64,000 nt of DNA from Alphaproteobacteria bacterium (lineage in GTDB: Bacteria > Pseudomonadota > Alphaproteobacteria > Rhizobiales > GCA-2746425): the NCBI GenBank assembly GCA_024743215.1, contig JANSWZ010000002.1, positions 248,001-312,000 of the forward strand, read 5' to 3'. This document shows, piece by piece, positions 20,248-28,534 of the stretch. A program made the position numbers and the translations under genes. The notes under the pieces are model-generated. The model did no database searches. It worked only from the letters and a program-made list of their open reading frames with translations, and was not told the origin of the DNA. Every line of letters begins with the position of its first letter. The first letter of the stretch is position 1.

Positions 20248-20324
20248 GGCGGAGTAGCTCAGCTGGTTAGAGCAGCGGAATCATAATCCGCGTGTCGGGG
20301 GTTCGAGTCCCTCTTCCGCTACCA
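20248..20324 (+). tRNA. tRNA-Met (CAT), elongator type
   Basis: The 77 bases fold into a full cloverleaf. The acceptor stem pairs GGCGGAG with TTCCGCT, the anticodon loop is ATCATAA with CAT at 20282-20284, the T-arm is GGGGGTTCGAGTCCCTC, and CCA is encoded. The GGCGGAGTAGCTCAG start is the alphaproteobacterial elongator tRNA-Met type rather than tRNA-Ile2 or initiator. IS remnants begin about 85 bases downstream. Confidence 0.95.
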
Positions 20325-20987: not shown

Positions 20988-22460
20988 ATGCTTTGGAGAC
21001 GATTGTCGCTTACAAATAAAATACTTGTAACTATTTCGCTGACGGCAATGATAATAGTCGCAATGATGGCCGGTCTGGTCGCACTGAGCATGCGGGACGG
21101 GTTCGCCAAATATTTACTGCAAACCGAGATCAATCGGTTCGATGACTTGGAAGTCGCTCTAAGTGAGTTATATGATCCGGCCAGCAATGGTTGGCCGCAA
21201 TTGGTAAGCACTGAAGAAAGTTGGCTCACCTTTGTCGTCGAAAACTTCAACCCGCGCGCCGTTCCTCCTCTTGAGTCTCAAGAAAGTTTGAGTGAAACAG
21301 CCGGGCAAGCGAGACCGGAACAATTTTCTACTCTGCCTCCGCGCAGAGGAACCGCGCCACCTCTTCTTATCAAGCGTATCGGATTGCTCGACCAAAATGG
21401 TGGGGTTTTAGCCGGGTCACCACAAGTTGGCAGCCAAATGGTTACGCGCGCCATTTTTCTCCCCGGACGCCCATCAAATTCTGAACCGATTGGATGGATA
21501 AGCCTATCGGCACCACTTGGTGAACGGGCGGAATCTGAGGATCTATTTATCGAGAGTCAGTATCGATCATTGCTGATCGTTTCTCTTATGGCCTTGGTGT
21601 TGTCGTTCGGCATGGCTGTCATACTCGCCCGCCAGTTTCTTAATCCAATTCGCGAGTTGACGGAGGGAAGTAGCAGATTGGCTTCTGGAAATTTCACAAC
21701 TCTCATTTCTCATCGCCGCCATGATGAATTGGGGAAATTGATGGACGACTATAACATTCTGACAAAAAGTCTGGCTGCCTCTGAGGAGGCTGAGCGTAAA
21801 TGGATCACAGATACATCGCATGAATTGCAGACACCATTGGCAATCCTACGCGCTGAAATCGAGGCCTTGATAGATGGTGTCAGGACACCGACTGCTGAGA
21901 GACTTCAAAACCTGCAGACTTCTGTGATGCGTCTGTCTTCACTTGTCGCCGATATCAATACGCTTTCAAGAACACGCGAAGGCGGGCTTTCTCTTAATCT
22001 TGAAGAAGTTCAGCTGGCTTCTGTTATTGCGGAAGCGGTCTCCAGCGCCAGAAATGGCTTCAAGGCCGCAGGCATAGAAATCAACTTGGATGTTCAGTCA
22101 GACTTGGTACTCAGCTGTGATCGTTTTCGACTTCGCCAAGTGTTTGACAATTTATTGGAGAATAGCAAACGCTATACCAGCCCCAACGGCAAAGTTCATA
22201 TTCAAGCCAAGGAAACGAGTTCTCAGATTCATATTGTGATTGAGGATTCCGCACCAAGCCCGCCGGCTGAATCAATTCAGCACCTATTCAAGAGATTTTA
22301 TCGTGTAGAACAGTCACGTTCCCGCGCGCTGGGAGGCTCTGGATTGGGTCTTTCCATTTGTCAATCAATCATCAGTGCGCACGGGGGCAAGATCGAAGCG
22401 CAGTCGTCTGAATTCGGTGGGTTAAAAATTGCACTCAGTCTTCCAAAACAAGCCACATAG
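20988..22460 (+). CDS. baeS: BaeS-like sensor histidine kinase
   Basis: The 490-aa inner-membrane kinase has two membrane segments (about 10-34 and 191-215) flanking a periplasmic sensor domain, a HAMP linker (RQFLNPIRELTEGSSRLASGNF), the H-box ITDTSHELQTPLAILRAEIE with phospho-His near 277, an N-box FDNLLENSKRYT, and G boxes DSAPSPP and GGSGLGLSI. The ending follows E. coli BaeS closely. BaeSR senses envelope stress and induces drug efflux in enterobacteria. Here the downstream genes are exported proteins of unknown function, so the signal and regulon are unknown. The response regulator starts 2 bases after its stop. Confidence 0.88.
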   Translation: MLWRRLSLTNKILVTISLTAMIIVAMMAGLVALSMRDGFAKYLLQTEINRFDDLEVALSELYDPASNGWPQLVSTEESWLTFVVENFNPRAVPPLESQESLSETAGQARPEQFSTLPPRRGTAPPLLIKRIGLLDQNGGVLAGSPQVGSQMVTRAIFLPGRPSNSEPIGWISLSAPLGERAESEDLFIESQYRSLLIVSLMALVLSFGMAVILARQFLNPIRELTEGSSRLASGNFTTLISHRRHDELGKLMDDYNILTKSLAASEEAERKWITDTSHELQTPLAILRAEIEALIDGVRTPTAERLQNLQTSVMRLSSLVADINTLSRTREGGLSLNLEEVQLASVIAEAVSSARNGFKAAGIEINLDVQSDLVLSCDRFRLRQVFDNLLENSKRYTSPNGKVHIQAKETSSQIHIVIEDSAPSPPAESIQHLFKRFYRVEQSRSRALGGSGLGLSICQSIISAHGGKIEAQSSEFGGLKIALSLPKQAT

Positions 22461-22462
22461 CC

Positions 22463-23149
22463 ATGCATAAAGATACGCCAAAAAATATTCTGATTGTCGA
22501 AGACGAAGTGGCCATAGCTGATGTGGTCAAGGAGTACCTTGCAGAGGCACAAATGGAGGCGGTTCTGCTTTCAAGCGGGGTTGATGCTGCAACAACAATT
22601 TTGTCTGGCGCATTCGATTTGGTAATTCTAGACCTCATGTTGCCCGGAATCGATGGATTGACCATTTGTCAGGAAGTTCGCAAAACCAGCGAAATTCCGA
22701 TCATAATGGTCACTGCAAAAGTTGAAGAAATTGACCGTCTGGTTGGTCTGGAGACGGGTGCGGACGATTATCTTTGCAAGCCCTTTTCTCCAAGGGAACT
22801 TGTTGCGCGGGTGAAGGCTGTGCTGCGCCGAACTTCAAATCAAATGGTGCTCTCCAATGAGAGCAGCCAGCGCTTGGTCGTTGATCCAGAGCGTTGGATT
22901 GTAACCTTTAACGGCGTGAATATCAGTTTGACAAGACGGGAGTTTATACTCTTTGAAATACTACATTCAAAACCTGGCAGGGTATATTCACGTGCACAGT
23001 TGCTAGAGCTTGCGTATGATCATGACAGTGATGTTATTGACCGCGCAATCGATAGTCACATCAAGAATATTCGCATCAAATTTGAGGCGGTTTGTGAGTG
23101 GGACCCCATCCGTTCGGTCTATGGCATCGGTTATTCTTATGATGGCTAA
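22463..23149 (+). CDS. baeR: BaeR-like response regulator (OmpR family)
   Basis: The 228-aa regulator has a receiver domain with the acidic pair in IVEDE (13-14), phospho-Asp D57 in LVILDLMLPGIDG and Lys in MVTAKVEEIDRL, then a winged-helix output domain (LTRREFILFEILHSKPGRVYSRAQLLEL, IDSHIKNIRIKFE, YGIGYSY). The MVTAKVEEIDRLVGLETGAD stretch is very close to BaeR. It is cotranscribed with the kinase gene. A weak hairpin (TCCCGT-GAGATA-ACGGGA) lies about 80 bases downstream. Confidence 0.9.
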   Translation: MHKDTPKNILIVEDEVAIADVVKEYLAEAQMEAVLLSSGVDAATTILSGAFDLVILDLMLPGIDGLTICQEVRKTSEIPIIMVTAKVEEIDRLVGLETGADDYLCKPFSPRELVARVKAVLRRTSNQMVLSNESSQRLVVDPERWIVTFNGVNISLTRREFILFEILHSKPGRVYSRAQLLELAYDHDSDVIDRAIDSHIKNIRIKFEAVCEWDPIRSVYGIGYSYDG

Positions 23150-23689
23150 TTCGATCATTGTGCCAGCGCTGGCCATTGCGGATTACACAAATGATACCAT
23201 TGAGAACCCGTTTGTTTTCAACCCGCGTAATCCCGTGAGATAACGGGACATACGGCTCAATCCACTTCATCTGCCTGTCAGCAAGCTAAAACAATTATAC
23301 ATGCCAAGCATCAGTCTGGCATCAGTGAAACAGTCCGCAAGCCGTCCCGTAGCCAATTTTCTGGGTCCCAAGTCTAGCTTGAATGATGACTGCGTTGTTG
23401 ATGTCTGCTTCCCAGCGGAAAATCTGAGAATTTTCCCTATCGAGTAAACGGCGCGCTCAGTTTCAAGTTTGATTTTTGCAGTTGAAGCGAAGGGCGTGAC
23501 AGCTCTGCAAATTGCCAAAGAGTATCGCGGTAACAACACAATCAATTTCATTCTTTCACACGGCACCGCAATTTAATTTGCCGATGGTCAGCGCGTAAAT
23601 CAACATCTTACCGCCACATTTTCTACAAACCAGGCTCACGATCAACAGGCAGTTAGGGCGTATTCGAAATCTAATTGAAAAGTAAAAAA
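23150..23689. other. Non-coding stretch with a possible transposase trace
   Basis: About 540 bases. A plus-strand frame ending near 23575 reads FAVEAKGVTALQIAKEYRG, faintly like the conserved middle of IS1595-type transposases (K-G-x-S-A-L-x-L). It has no start, is preceded by a stop at about 23447, and is too short to call. No RNA gene was recognised. Confidence 0.3.
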
Positions 23690-24028
23690 ATGAAAATGAA
23701 AACGGATTTTCGCCCGGTTGTGAGCAGGTATTCTCTCGTCATCCTTGCTGCTGCAACCTTTGTTTTTTATTCCTTAGTTACAAGCAACGTTTTTGCTGAC
23801 GATACGCTTCAATCCCGCGGTGCAATGATCATGGCTCAGAACGGCGCGCGAAGCCAAAATGGAAATCGTCCCAGTCCACCTTCCCCAGAGGCAATAAACG
23901 CATGCGAAGCAAAAGCAGAAAATTCTAGATGTAGTTTCAACGATGTGCGTAGTGGCGTGGCAGTAAAAGGTACATGTATTACAACGCCTCGGGGCGAGGC
24001 CGCTTGTGCTGCCAATAGTGCAAAATAA
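23690..24028 (+). CDS. Small exported Cys-containing protein, function unknown
   Basis: The roughly 112-aa protein has a signal peptide (hydrophobic YSLVILAAATFVFYSLV, cleavage probably after NVFA). The mature part is proline-rich (NGNRPSPPSPEAINACE) and then has four Cys in the pattern C-x6-C-x14-C-x8-C (INACEAKAENSRCSF, GTCITTPRGEAACAA), likely two disulfides in the periplasm. The frame opens at a TTG at 23675, but the ATG at 23690 is a more likely start. I do not recognise a named family. Its position after baeSR and before the DUF6152 gene makes it a candidate member of an envelope-associated group. Confidence 0.6.
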   Translation: MKMKTDFRPVVSRYSLVILAAATFVFYSLVTSNVFADDTLQSRGAMIMAQNGARSQNGNRPSPPSPEAINACEAKAENSRCSFNDVRSGVAVKGTCITTPRGEAACAANSAK

Positions 24029-24279: not shown

Positions 24280-25380
24280 ATGGTACCCTTACGAACCATC
24301 GCAATTGTTATAGCACTCATAGTTTGGCCAATAAACTCAATGGCTCACCACGGTGTCAGTGGTCAATTTGATTTGAGCCAAACATTTGAAGCCTCGGGCA
24401 AAATAACGCGGATAAGACTCGTGAACCCGCATGCCTATGTTTACTTTGATGTCACCGACGACGCGGGCGTCGTGACAAATATGCGCTGCGCAATGGAGTC
24501 TGGATCGTCTATGAAGCGCAGCGGCTGGACCGAAGAGATGTTTGAGATCGGCAGCGAAATCACCATCAGCGGTTCACCTGACCGTAACGATCCGACGACC
24601 TGCCTTATGAGCCAGATCACCTTTGCAAATGGTGTGACGGCGGACCGCGATAGTACCTTTGGCGAAGATGGTTCGATCATTGCTGCGGAACGTCAGATCG
24701 CACGCGAAGATGGCACGCCCAACATTGACGGCAACTGGGCGATGGCAAACCCGCAGGAACGCAGCGGCGGGCGGCCAACCGTGACCCAGACCGAAGCCGG
24801 CTTGGCTGCGGTTGCCGATGCAAGCCCGGACCAGAACCCGCGGTTCAATTGTCTCGCAACCAATATCGCGATGGATTGGGTCTTTAACGGGATGGTGAAT
24901 GCCATCGACCAGTCAGACACCGAAATAACAATAACATATGGCTTTATGGATTTGGTCCGCACGATCCATTTGGATGGCAGTGAGATGCCCGATGATTTTG
25001 TGCCAAGCCGTGCAGGATATTCTGTAGGCGAATGGGACGGTGACACCTTGGTCGTTACCACGACCGGTTTTGATGAAGGCTGGATCATGGCTCCGGTCGG
25101 CGGGGGCGCTCGCCTTGTTGTAGACGGCGAGGAAGAGGCTGATCGTCCGAAACGCCCTGAAGGTCGCGGTGGTCCGCAAGCTGTCAAGAACAGTGAGGAG
25201 TTGACCGTAACCGAGAGGTTCACGCTGAACGACGATGGTACTGTGCTGATGCGGGAATATGCGTTTTTCGATCCGATCTATCTCGAAGCGCCCTTTGTGG
25301 GAACGGATGAAGTTACGCTCACTGCGGATGCCTATGAGCCCTATGCTTGTGAAGACCTCACAAACGAGCGGACTGAGTAG
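24280..25380 (+). CDS. Exported DUF6152-domain protein
   Basis: The 366-aa protein has a signal peptide ending at MAHHG (cleavage near residue 21). It then shows the DUF6152 pattern: AHHGVSGQFDLSQTFEASGK, VNPHAYVYFDVTDD and GSEITISGSPDRNDPTTC. The region from about 150 is a separate domain with WDGDTLVVTTTGFDEGW and LTVTERFTLNDDGTVLMREY, seen in many exported proteins annotated as hypothetical. The reaction, if any, is unknown. A strong hairpin (GCCCCGCG arms, 25409-25433) follows the gene. The next frame downstream is the DUF6644-like fragment, its usual type of neighbour as I recall the family. Confidence 0.65.
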   Translation: MVPLRTIAIVIALIVWPINSMAHHGVSGQFDLSQTFEASGKITRIRLVNPHAYVYFDVTDDAGVVTNMRCAMESGSSMKRSGWTEEMFEIGSEITISGSPDRNDPTTCLMSQITFANGVTADRDSTFGEDGSIIAAERQIAREDGTPNIDGNWAMANPQERSGGRPTVTQTEAGLAAVADASPDQNPRFNCLATNIAMDWVFNGMVNAIDQSDTEITITYGFMDLVRTIHLDGSEMPDDFVPSRAGYSVGEWDGDTLVVTTTGFDEGWIMAPVGGGARLVVDGEEEADRPKRPEGRGGPQAVKNSEELTVTERFTLNDDGTVLMREYAFFDPIYLEAPFVGTDEVTLTADAYEPYACEDLTNERTE

Positions 25381-25461: not shown

Positions 25462-25660
25462 ATGGAAACTCTATTCTGGCTCGAAGATTCTTTCCTTGGA
25501 AAGATAGTCTCCAGCACGTTGTGGGGCTATCCCATCGTGTTGTCCTTGCACGCGAACGGCATGGCCACGATGGTTGGCGTGACCATGATGCTCACGGTCA
25601 GTGTATTGGGGTTTGCCCCGAAAATCCCTGTCACTGCAATGGCCCCTTATTGGCGCGTAG
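25462..25660 (+). pseudogene. 5' fragment of a DUF6644-like membrane protein gene
   Basis: The ATG at 25462 opens a frame whose first 60-65 residues resemble DUF6644-type proteins: LEDSFLGKIVSSTLWGYPIV, LSLHANGMATMVGVTMMLTV, LGFAPKIPVTAM. The similarity stops near residue 65. The frame runs on to 25866 but reads as nonsense there, while a different frame (from 25661) takes up a HupE/UreJ-like sequence. The simplest reading is a deletion that joined the front of this gene to the back of the next one out of frame. The promoter side of the gene looks intact. Confidence 0.55.
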
Positions 25661-26026
25661 CTGTTGGCGGGTGTGTCCTCTATCGGTTTGTCCGTTTGCG
25701 ACAATGCACTCGAGAACCTTCAGATTATACGGCCGATCAATCCCAAATTGGCCGTGTTCGGATTTGGCTTGGTGCATGGGCTGGGCCTGTCCACCAAACT
25801 GCAAGACCTGCCCCTTTCACGCGATGGCTTGATCGTCAATATGCTGGTGTTCGACATTGGCGTTGAGCTTGGGCAGATCGCGGCCCTGACGATATCGTTT
25901 GGCGGCTTGGCCTGGCTGCGACAGCGATTTGATTTCACACTTATAGCGACAAACGCAAATGTCCTTTTGTTCGCCGCTGGATCGGCCCTGTTCGCAATGC
26001 AATCGGTCGGATATTTCACAACATGA
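25661..26026 (+). pseudogene. C-terminal part of a HupE/UreJ-2-like membrane protein
   Basis: The frame starts right after a stop at 25658-25660 and could begin at the TTG at 25664. It encodes about 120 residues with FGFGLVHGLGLSTKLQDLPL and LVFDIGVELGQIAALTISFG, the last conserved half of HupE/UreJ-like proteins with their His-Gly and Glu-x-Gly-Gln motifs. The first membrane helices and the His-rich N-terminal metal motif are missing. It may still be translated from TTG with the downstream gene, but is more likely the 3' end left by a deletion. Its stop is followed by a ribosome site for the next gene. Confidence 0.55.
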
Positions 26027-26039
26027 TGGAGACGAAACA

Positions 26040-26681
26040 ATGAAGCTTATGAAAAAAATAATCGCGGCAGCGATAGCCGGTGTTGCCTTGTCGGTGGTGG
26101 CCCTTCTACCCGCGGAATATAGTATCGATTCAAACGGTTTGGGCGGCAAGCTAGGTTTTACCGCCTTGGCACAAGAACCCGAAACGGCGGCCCCCTTTGA
26201 CGGGGTGCTCGAATTCAACATCGGCGACTATGACCCGACTGCAGATAGGATCGACAGATCCGTGCAAGGTCTGATTCATCAAGAAGATGCACCATTTCAC
26301 AGCGCGATCATCGATATTGAAATCGAAGATTTTGGCGAAATTGAACACAAATTCATCATGCCAGCGGACACCACCTTCGTCTATTCTTGGAAGGTGTTGG
26401 ACGCCCTTGGTGACGGGGTCTACTACGATTTTCATGGGCATCCATCGAGTGCTGACGCAGTCAACTACCCCGACGGCTTTGAAATGGCCTATGCAAAAGG
26501 CGAAGGTACAGAGCAGCACGGCTCCTTCACCGCTCCGTTCTCAGGCTACCACGGGTTCTACTTTATGAATATCGAGCAAGGGCCCATAACGGTTCGCCTG
26601 ACGGTCAGTGGATATTGGGAAGAACATAAGGAAATGTACCGTGCCGTTAAAGGAGAGGTGCTGAAAAATGAGTCGTTTTGA
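26040..26681 (+). CDS. Exported transmembrane-anchor-type protein of the HupE-associated group
   Basis: The roughly 213-aa protein has an N-terminal signal or anchor segment (KKIIAAAIAGVALSVVALLP) and a C-terminal domain with FIMPADTTFVYSWKVLDALG, VYYDFHGHPSSAD, GSFTAPFSGYHGFYFMNIEQ and GPITVRLTVSGYWEE. The same order (K-x-G-x-x-x-x-Y-x-W, D-x-H-G-x-P, F-x-G-x-H-G-W/F) is seen in short exported proteins that accompany HupE/UreJ-like genes. The frame opens at 25959, but the ATG at 26040 has GGAG 9 bases upstream. Function unknown; a metal-related envelope role is only a guess from the gene association. Confidence 0.55.
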   Translation: MKLMKKIIAAAIAGVALSVVALLPAEYSIDSNGLGGKLGFTALAQEPETAAPFDGVLEFNIGDYDPTADRIDRSVQGLIHQEDAPFHSAIIDIEIEDFGEIEHKFIMPADTTFVYSWKVLDALGDGVYYDFHGHPSSADAVNYPDGFEMAYAKGEGTEQHGSFTAPFSGYHGFYFMNIEQGPITVRLTVSGYWEEHKEMYRAVKGEVLKNESF

Positions 26682-27136: not shown

Positions 27137-28534
27137 ATGAACTGGGACGAGTTTGCGAGCTGGAGCAAGGAGATCGCCGATTGGGGCGCACGATATCACA
27201 AAACCCTGCGCGACCGGCCGGTGCGTGCGCAAACCAAGCCCGGAGAAATCGCAGCACAGTTACCCAAATCTCCGCCTCACCAGCCAGAAGATATGGCGAC
27301 TATCCTGCGTGATTTTGATGCCATCGTCATGCCCGGCATGACCCATTGGCAACACCCGAGGTTTTTTGCCTATTTCCCGGCCAATGCCGCGCCACCGTCG
27401 ATGCTGGCTGAGCAGCTTGTGACCACGGTCGCCGCACAATGCATGCTGTGGCAGACCTCTCCCGCTGCGACCGAGCTCGAGGAGGTCATGGTCGATTGGT
27501 TGCGACAGGCACTTGGTCTGCCTGATGGCATGACCGGTGTGATACAGGACAGCGCATCGTCTGCCACACTCTCCGCGGTTCTGACAATGCGGGAAAGAGC
27601 CACCGAATATGCGAGCAACCGGACGGGTCTTGCAGGCGCAGGACGCTTGCGCGTCTATTGTTCCGATCAGGTTCATTCCTCCATTGATCGGGCCTGCTGG
27701 GTGTCCGGTATCGGTCAGGACAACCTCATCAAAATCACCGGCACCAGTCCGCGATACGGAATGGCCGCGCCGGCGCTTGATGCGGCGATCAAGGCGGATT
27801 TGGCCGAGGGGCATATCCCAGCCGGGATTATCGCCATTACCGGGGGAACGGGCGTCGGGGGCTGTGACGATCTTGCCGCGACCCTTGAGGTAGCGCGCGC
27901 TCATGACCTCTACACGCACCTTGATGCCGCGTGGGCCGGAGCCGCAATGATCTGCCCCGAATTTCGGGAGCGTTTTTGGCAAGGCGTCGAAGGGTTCGAC
28001 AGCATCGTTTTTAACCCGCACAAATGGCTGGGCGCGCAGTTCGATTGTTCCGTCCAGTTCCTGCGCGATGCGACGCCGCAGCTTAACACACTGAAAATCG
28101 AGCCTGAATACCTTAAGACCAGCGGCGATGTGGTGACCAACTATTCGGAATGGACCATCCCGCTTGGCCGTCGCTTTCGCGCGCTCAAACTGTGGTTCCT
28201 GATCCGCTCCTATGGGTTGGACGGCTTGCAAGCCCGCATCCGCAATCACGTGTCCTGGGCCGAGGCGCTGGCCGAGGACATCCGCGCGATCGATGGTTTT
28301 GAGATCGTGACGGAACCGATCCTCAGCCTGTTTTCCTTCCGCTGTCCCGGCGATGATGCGATCCAGCAAAGACTGGTGGATGCGATTAACGATGATGGGC
28401 GCATCTACCTGACCCAGGGTTTGTTTGAAGGTCGCAAGATCATCCGTGTTCAAGTGGGGCAGTTCGATACCACACGTGAGGATGTCATGATGGTTCGATC
28501 CGTGGTTGAAGAAGTTTGGCAAGCTGTCCAATGA
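27137..28534 (+). CDS. Group II PLP-dependent amino-acid decarboxylase (aromatic type)
   Basis: The 465-aa enzyme belongs to the glutamate/aromatic-L-amino-acid decarboxylase fold. The PLP-binding Lys is K296 in FNPHKWLG, the Asp that contacts the PLP nitrogen is in LDAAWAGAA, and HPRFFAYFPAN, PAATELEEVMVDWL and DSASSATLSAVL follow plant and bacterial aromatic decarboxylases. It should release CO2 from an L-amino acid such as Trp, Tyr, DOPA or Phe; the exact substrate cannot be read. A ribosome site precedes the ATG. An alanine-dehydrogenase/carboxyethylornithine-synthase-like gene follows after a hairpin. Confidence 0.88.
   Translation: MNWDEFASWSKEIADWGARYHKTLRDRPVRAQTKPGEIAAQLPKSPPHQPEDMATILRDFDAIVMPGMTHWQHPRFFAYFPANAAPPSMLAEQLVTTVAAQCMLWQTSPAATELEEVMVDWLRQALGLPDGMTGVIQDSASSATLSAVLTMRERATEYASNRTGLAGAGRLRVYCSDQVHSSIDRACWVSGIGQDNLIKITGTSPRYGMAAPALDAAIKADLAEGHIPAGIIAITGGTGVGGCDDLAATLEVARAHDLYTHLDAAWAGAAMICPEFRERFWQGVEGFDSIVFNPHKWLGAQFDCSVQFLRDATPQLNTLKIEPEYLKTSGDVVTNYSEWTIPLGRRFRALKLWFLIRSYGLDGLQARIRNHVSWAEALAEDIRAIDGFEIVTEPILSLFSFRCPGDDAIQQRLVDAINDDGRIYLTQGLFEGRKIIRVQVGQFDTTREDVMMVRSVVEEVWQAVQ

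Follow-up and report, generated by a model that had tools for sequence, protein, structure and literature searches.

What happened between positions 25462 and 26026 of this alphaproteobacterial contig, where the front of a DUF6644-like gene runs into the back of a HupE/UreJ-like gene and neither is complete? We analysed this junction within a window of 64,000 nucleotides (the whole stretch of DNA considered here), together with the flanking genes and with related clusters in the same genome and elsewhere. The window very probably carries a diverged second copy of a cluster of five genes (DUF6152, two DUF6644-like genes termed A and B, HupE/UreJ and a partner gene) that has been hit by one internal deletion of about 1.1 kb. 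The features on which this reading is built are collected in Table 1.

Table 1. Features of the window copy and of the two intact reference clusters (window coordinates unless a locus is named).
Feature	Location	Strand	Basis
DUF6152 protein, 366 aa, intact, first cluster gene	24280..25380	+	PF19649, E 3.4e-16; 43-48% identical to DUF6152 proteins of the intact clusters
5' remnant of DUF6644-like gene A	25462..25677	+	some 72 codons left out of about 152; 62.5% identical (72 aa) to gene A in both L018 and L019
Deletion junction	25675..25682	.	alignment to L018 and L019 changes diagonal here; 1096 bp absent
3' remnant of HupE/UreJ_2 gene	25682..26026	+	out of frame with the gene A remnant; starts at the equivalent of residue 120 in the L018 protein (233 residues; alignment A1)
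Partner protein, 213 aa, intact, after HupE	26040..26681	+	61-63% identity to the same-position gene in L018 and L019
Intact cluster, own genome, contig C18	L018 5722-9403	-	DUF6152, A, B, HupE, partner
Intact cluster, congener G002	L019 6958-10602	-	DUF6152, A, B, HupE, partner

Two intact clusters serve as references, and both encode, in this order, a DUF6152 protein of 386 aa, A of 152 aa, B of 161 aa, HupE of 233 or 254 aa and a partner protein of 224 aa; the Pfam assignment of these proteins was made on L018 only. L018 and L019 are syntenic (88% identical in DNA across 10.7 kb) and so do not testify independently to the gene order. Each of the four pieces of the window cluster has its closest match in these two loci among the loci compared, which include the best 80 of 584 confirmed contig matches.

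On the 5' side of the junction, the gene A remnant starts with an ATG and its match to the intact relatives begins at residue 1, so the start of the gene looks intact, as had been supposed from the sequence alone. The first 64 residues of this frame are 64% identical to the protein on C18 (E 6.5e-24) and 66% identical to the DUF6644-like protein of the congener G002 (E 6.3e-23); of the 61 genomes searched, one more, G033, matched, but only marginally (33%, E 9.3e-4). Among the four congeners searched, matches to the DUF6644-like and partner proteins occur in G002 only, and the other three yielded only distant HupE-family matches (28-35%). The sequence-only reading had this frame encode about 65 residues of a DUF6644-like protein up to about 25655; it is indeed an N-terminal remnant, but alignment to L018 and L019 extends it to about 72 residues, ending at about 25677. 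The family label itself is weak. The remnant matched no Pfam profile, PF20349 (DUF6644) included, and the intact A and B proteins of L018 score 15.9 and 25.3 bits against PF20349, below its curated cut-off of 27, so that "DUF6644-like" is a loose term for both by profile. A and B are related to one another (26% identity, E 7.0e-13).

On the 3' side, the second frame had been taken for the C-terminal half only of a HupE/UreJ-like protein, and this is borne out. The remnant, which ends at the stop codon 26024-26026, matches PF13795 (HupE_UreJ_2) only over positions 67-154 of the profile's 156 (E 8.6e-20), while the intact L018 protein covers positions 1-154, and it is 60-61% identical to its longer HupE counterparts from C18 and G002. 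The HX5DH motif of HupE/UreJ proteins, which has a role in nickel transport, belongs to the missing first half and is gone from the remnant. The motif occurs in every one (112 of 112) of the distinct HupE frames that score at least 200 bits, a limit that biases the count toward complete HupE proteins, among loci from relatives and the best 80 of 584 confirmed contig matches; the set was obtained from 138 HupE-profile matches by removing those below 200 bits, the window itself and identical repeats.

The nature of the junction emerges from an alignment that the same earlier reading had proposed, with relatives carrying the DUF6152-DUF6644-HupE gene order. Run without gaps against L018 and L019, it keeps to one diagonal as far as about 25677 and to a second one starting at about 25682, with an offset of 1096 bp in both. 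In steps of 20 bases, identity on the left diagonal is 0.55-0.75 at step starts 25600-25660 and falls to 0.25-0.45 at 25680-25720, and on the right diagonal it rises from 0.25-0.30 at 25650 and 25660 to 0.85-0.90 at 25680. Against L018, the left diagonal gives 0.60-0.75 at starts 25600-25660 (0.55 and 0.45 in the two preceding steps) and 0.30-0.45 at 25680-25720, and the right diagonal 0.30 at 25660, 0.60 at 25670, 0.85 at 25680, 0.40 at 25720 and 0.70-0.80 at 25740 and 25750, the dip at 25720 being in line with a protein of 60% identity that includes a poorly conserved stretch. The junction thus lies near the place first given for it, about 25655, but some 20-27 bases to its right. What is missing comprises the end of A (residues 73-152), gene B in its entirety and the first part of HupE (residues 1-119), and as 1096 leaves a remainder of 1 on division by 3, the two halves are out of frame, the remnant frames being offset by one base. 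The window copy is therefore separated from its same-order relatives, which are paralogs and mutually syntenic, by a single gap of 1096 bp. The idea of a single internal deletion across two neighbouring genes is supported as to the number of events but not as to its extent, since three genes are crossed and gene B is lost whole.

How the breakpoints were joined was also considered. A deletion between TTGTCCG direct repeats, which lie near both breakpoints in L018, was not accepted: the left copy is shifted by one base against the window, and the window bases immediately upstream (ATCGG) already agree with the right-hand partner. Scanning the window itself for repeats around the junction returned only short imperfect pairs, and no short direct repeat was demonstrable at the breakpoints. 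A single-base error within one long gene was rejected, as each half comes from a gene of its own and both genes are separate and intact in L018 and L019.

Both remnants retain the substitution pattern of coding sequence. Identity to L018 at codon positions 1, 2 and 3 is 0.69, 0.85 and 0.51 for the A remnant and 0.67, 0.80 and 0.44 for the HupE remnant, compared with 0.61, 0.69 and 0.37 for the intact DUF6152 gene and 0.69, 0.81 and 0.38 for the intact partner gene. With 61-62.5% amino-acid identity and the same ranking of position 2 over 1 over 3, the remnants are no more decayed than their intact neighbours, which means that the deletion is young relative to the divergence of the copies or else that selection is still at work. 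A rival reading is a functional junction, with frameshifting producing a single protein from the N-terminal part of A and the HupE half, or an internal start producing the HupE half by itself; in its favour, both frames are free of stops across the remnants and keep coding-type patterns. We nevertheless regard such a junction as highly improbable, because the first frame, displaced by one base, continues past the junction outside the HupE frame to a stop at 25864-25866, because the half of HupE bearing HX5DH is absent, and because open frames are also expected after a recent deletion. It is just as hard to credit that the remnant still gives rise to a small membrane protein, or to the C-terminal half of HupE, acting together with the intact partner protein or modulating the C18 system.

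An assembly or sequencing artefact, in which the assembler dropped about 1.1 kb from a genome that has the genes intact, is somewhat less remote but still improbable. With one assembly standing for the organism among the genomes compared, there is room for such an error; against it, the junction lies some 272-274 kb into a contig of 735,814 bases, far from the contig ends, and only the short imperfect repeats already described surround it. The missing pieces are also not stranded elsewhere: searches of the own genome with B, HupE residues 1-118 and the end of A, each taken in its L018 version, matched the C18 cluster, with a 26% cross-match between A and B on C18 and a weak HupE-family match on contig C5 (27%, E 1.3e-4) as the other matches, and found the missing part of the window copy on no other contig. 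A chimera with the C18 copy was considered and rejected, given that the aligned DNA is just about 68-71% alike. A real and ordinary deletion pseudogene in a redundant cluster is the most likely explanation.

The genes around the remnants give the setting of this probable deletion pseudogene. The partner protein has one N-terminal hydrophobic stretch, as judged by eye, and matched no Pfam family above cut-off. The promoter scan returned 0 promoter-like sites against a shuffle mean of 2.9, and the terminator scan returned 5 terminator-like sites against 3.6 in shuffles (sd 1.9), which is not clearly above them. Upstream of the DUF6152 gene lie genes for a histidine kinase (20988-22460) and then a response regulator (22463-23149), and just upstream of it a small protein of 117 aa (23675-24028) with an apparent signal peptide by eye and no Pfam match. 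A pyridoxal-dependent decarboxylase gene (27137-28534) is 76-77% identical in DNA to genes in plasmid records of Phaeobacter porticola and Ruegeria sp. The sole tRNA reported in the window, a tRNA-Met gene with CAT anticodon (20248-20324), falls where plasmid records of Rhizobium and Sphingomonas match the window at 95-96%.

The generality of the cluster bears on the ancestral state proposed for the window copy. A contig scan with the window fragment as query confirmed no relative, and the scan with alignment A1 as query supplied the best 80 of its 584 confirmed matches. Among the resulting loci, these 80 included, 136 records have a HupE match (overlapping loci counted apart), 134 matches are to partner-like genes, which are thus much commoner than the complete cluster, and 21 listed records have a DUF6152 or DUF6644-like match, with or without HupE and leaving out four copies of the window region. 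The complete five-gene order occurs in this set only in L018, L019 and overlapping pieces of them, and the majority of HupE loci lack it within the DNA examined. Parts of the cluster set are found near HupE in other loci (e.g., L053, L063, L064, L068 and L121), and in L033 near a partner-like gene, without HupE in the DNA examined. The small number of five-gene loci limits the argument for the ancestral order, which would rest on paralogs about 60% identical in protein; the A remnant adjoining a HupE remnant is itself the evidence that the window copy belonged to the same kind of cluster.

No ortholog of the window copy was found in the order sample (397 genomes) or the class sample (385 genomes), which held only the known paralogs and distant relatives with at most 42% identity (short stretches up to 54%). 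Partner-protein matches occur in 33 of the 397 and 26 of the 385 genomes, each count including the own genome; leaving the window itself aside, the best are C18 (63%, both samples) and G002 (62%, order sample). The second copy may have originated by duplication or by transfer from a near relative.

The course of events would then begin with a diverged second copy of the cluster in its presumed ancestral order DUF6152, A, B, HupE/UreJ and partner. One event would have deleted about 1.1 kb inside it, joining codons 1-72 of A to HupE from codon 120 onward in a different frame and removing B whole, and leaving the three membrane proteins of this copy non-functional or absent. With both DUF6644-like proteins and the first half of HupE lost, the window copy has most likely been left without membrane function. 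The C18 cluster would cover that function, which by family resemblance may be the handling of divalent metals (Ni/Co). Because both remnants stay open with coding-type substitution patterns, the loss would be young relative to the divergence between the copies.

In practice, the frames of 134 and 120 aa may be taken for real genes by automatic annotation, and the strain is to be credited with one complete copy of the cluster rather than two. Beyond annotation the deletion is of little import, apart from a side result, the association of DUF6152, two tandem DUF6644-like genes, HupE/UreJ and the partner gene, which we put forward as a candidate uncharacterised membrane system; a literature search by the two DUF names found no paper naming DUF6152 or DUF6644.

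Compared with known systems, the A remnant can be placed beside the DUF6644 family (PF20349) in that it is homologous to the intact gene A, itself a weak match to that profile, but less than half of the protein is left in the window and the intact relatives too fall under the Pfam cut-off. The C-terminal half of HupE fits PF13795, the profile of the HupE/UreJ secondary metal transporters, as well as intact proteins at 60-61% identity, whereas without the N-terminal half carrying HX5DH it is an incomplete member. Passages of PMC2667541 and PMC4284471 describe HupE/UreJ proteins as secondary Ni/Co transporters, some of them shown to carry nickel, and ascribe a cobalt role to HupE of Synechocystis. 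Nothing notable in the window copy sets it apart from ordinary bacterial deletion pseudogenes, with which it shares two truncated genes abutting out of frame, intact flanks and a diverged intact copy elsewhere.
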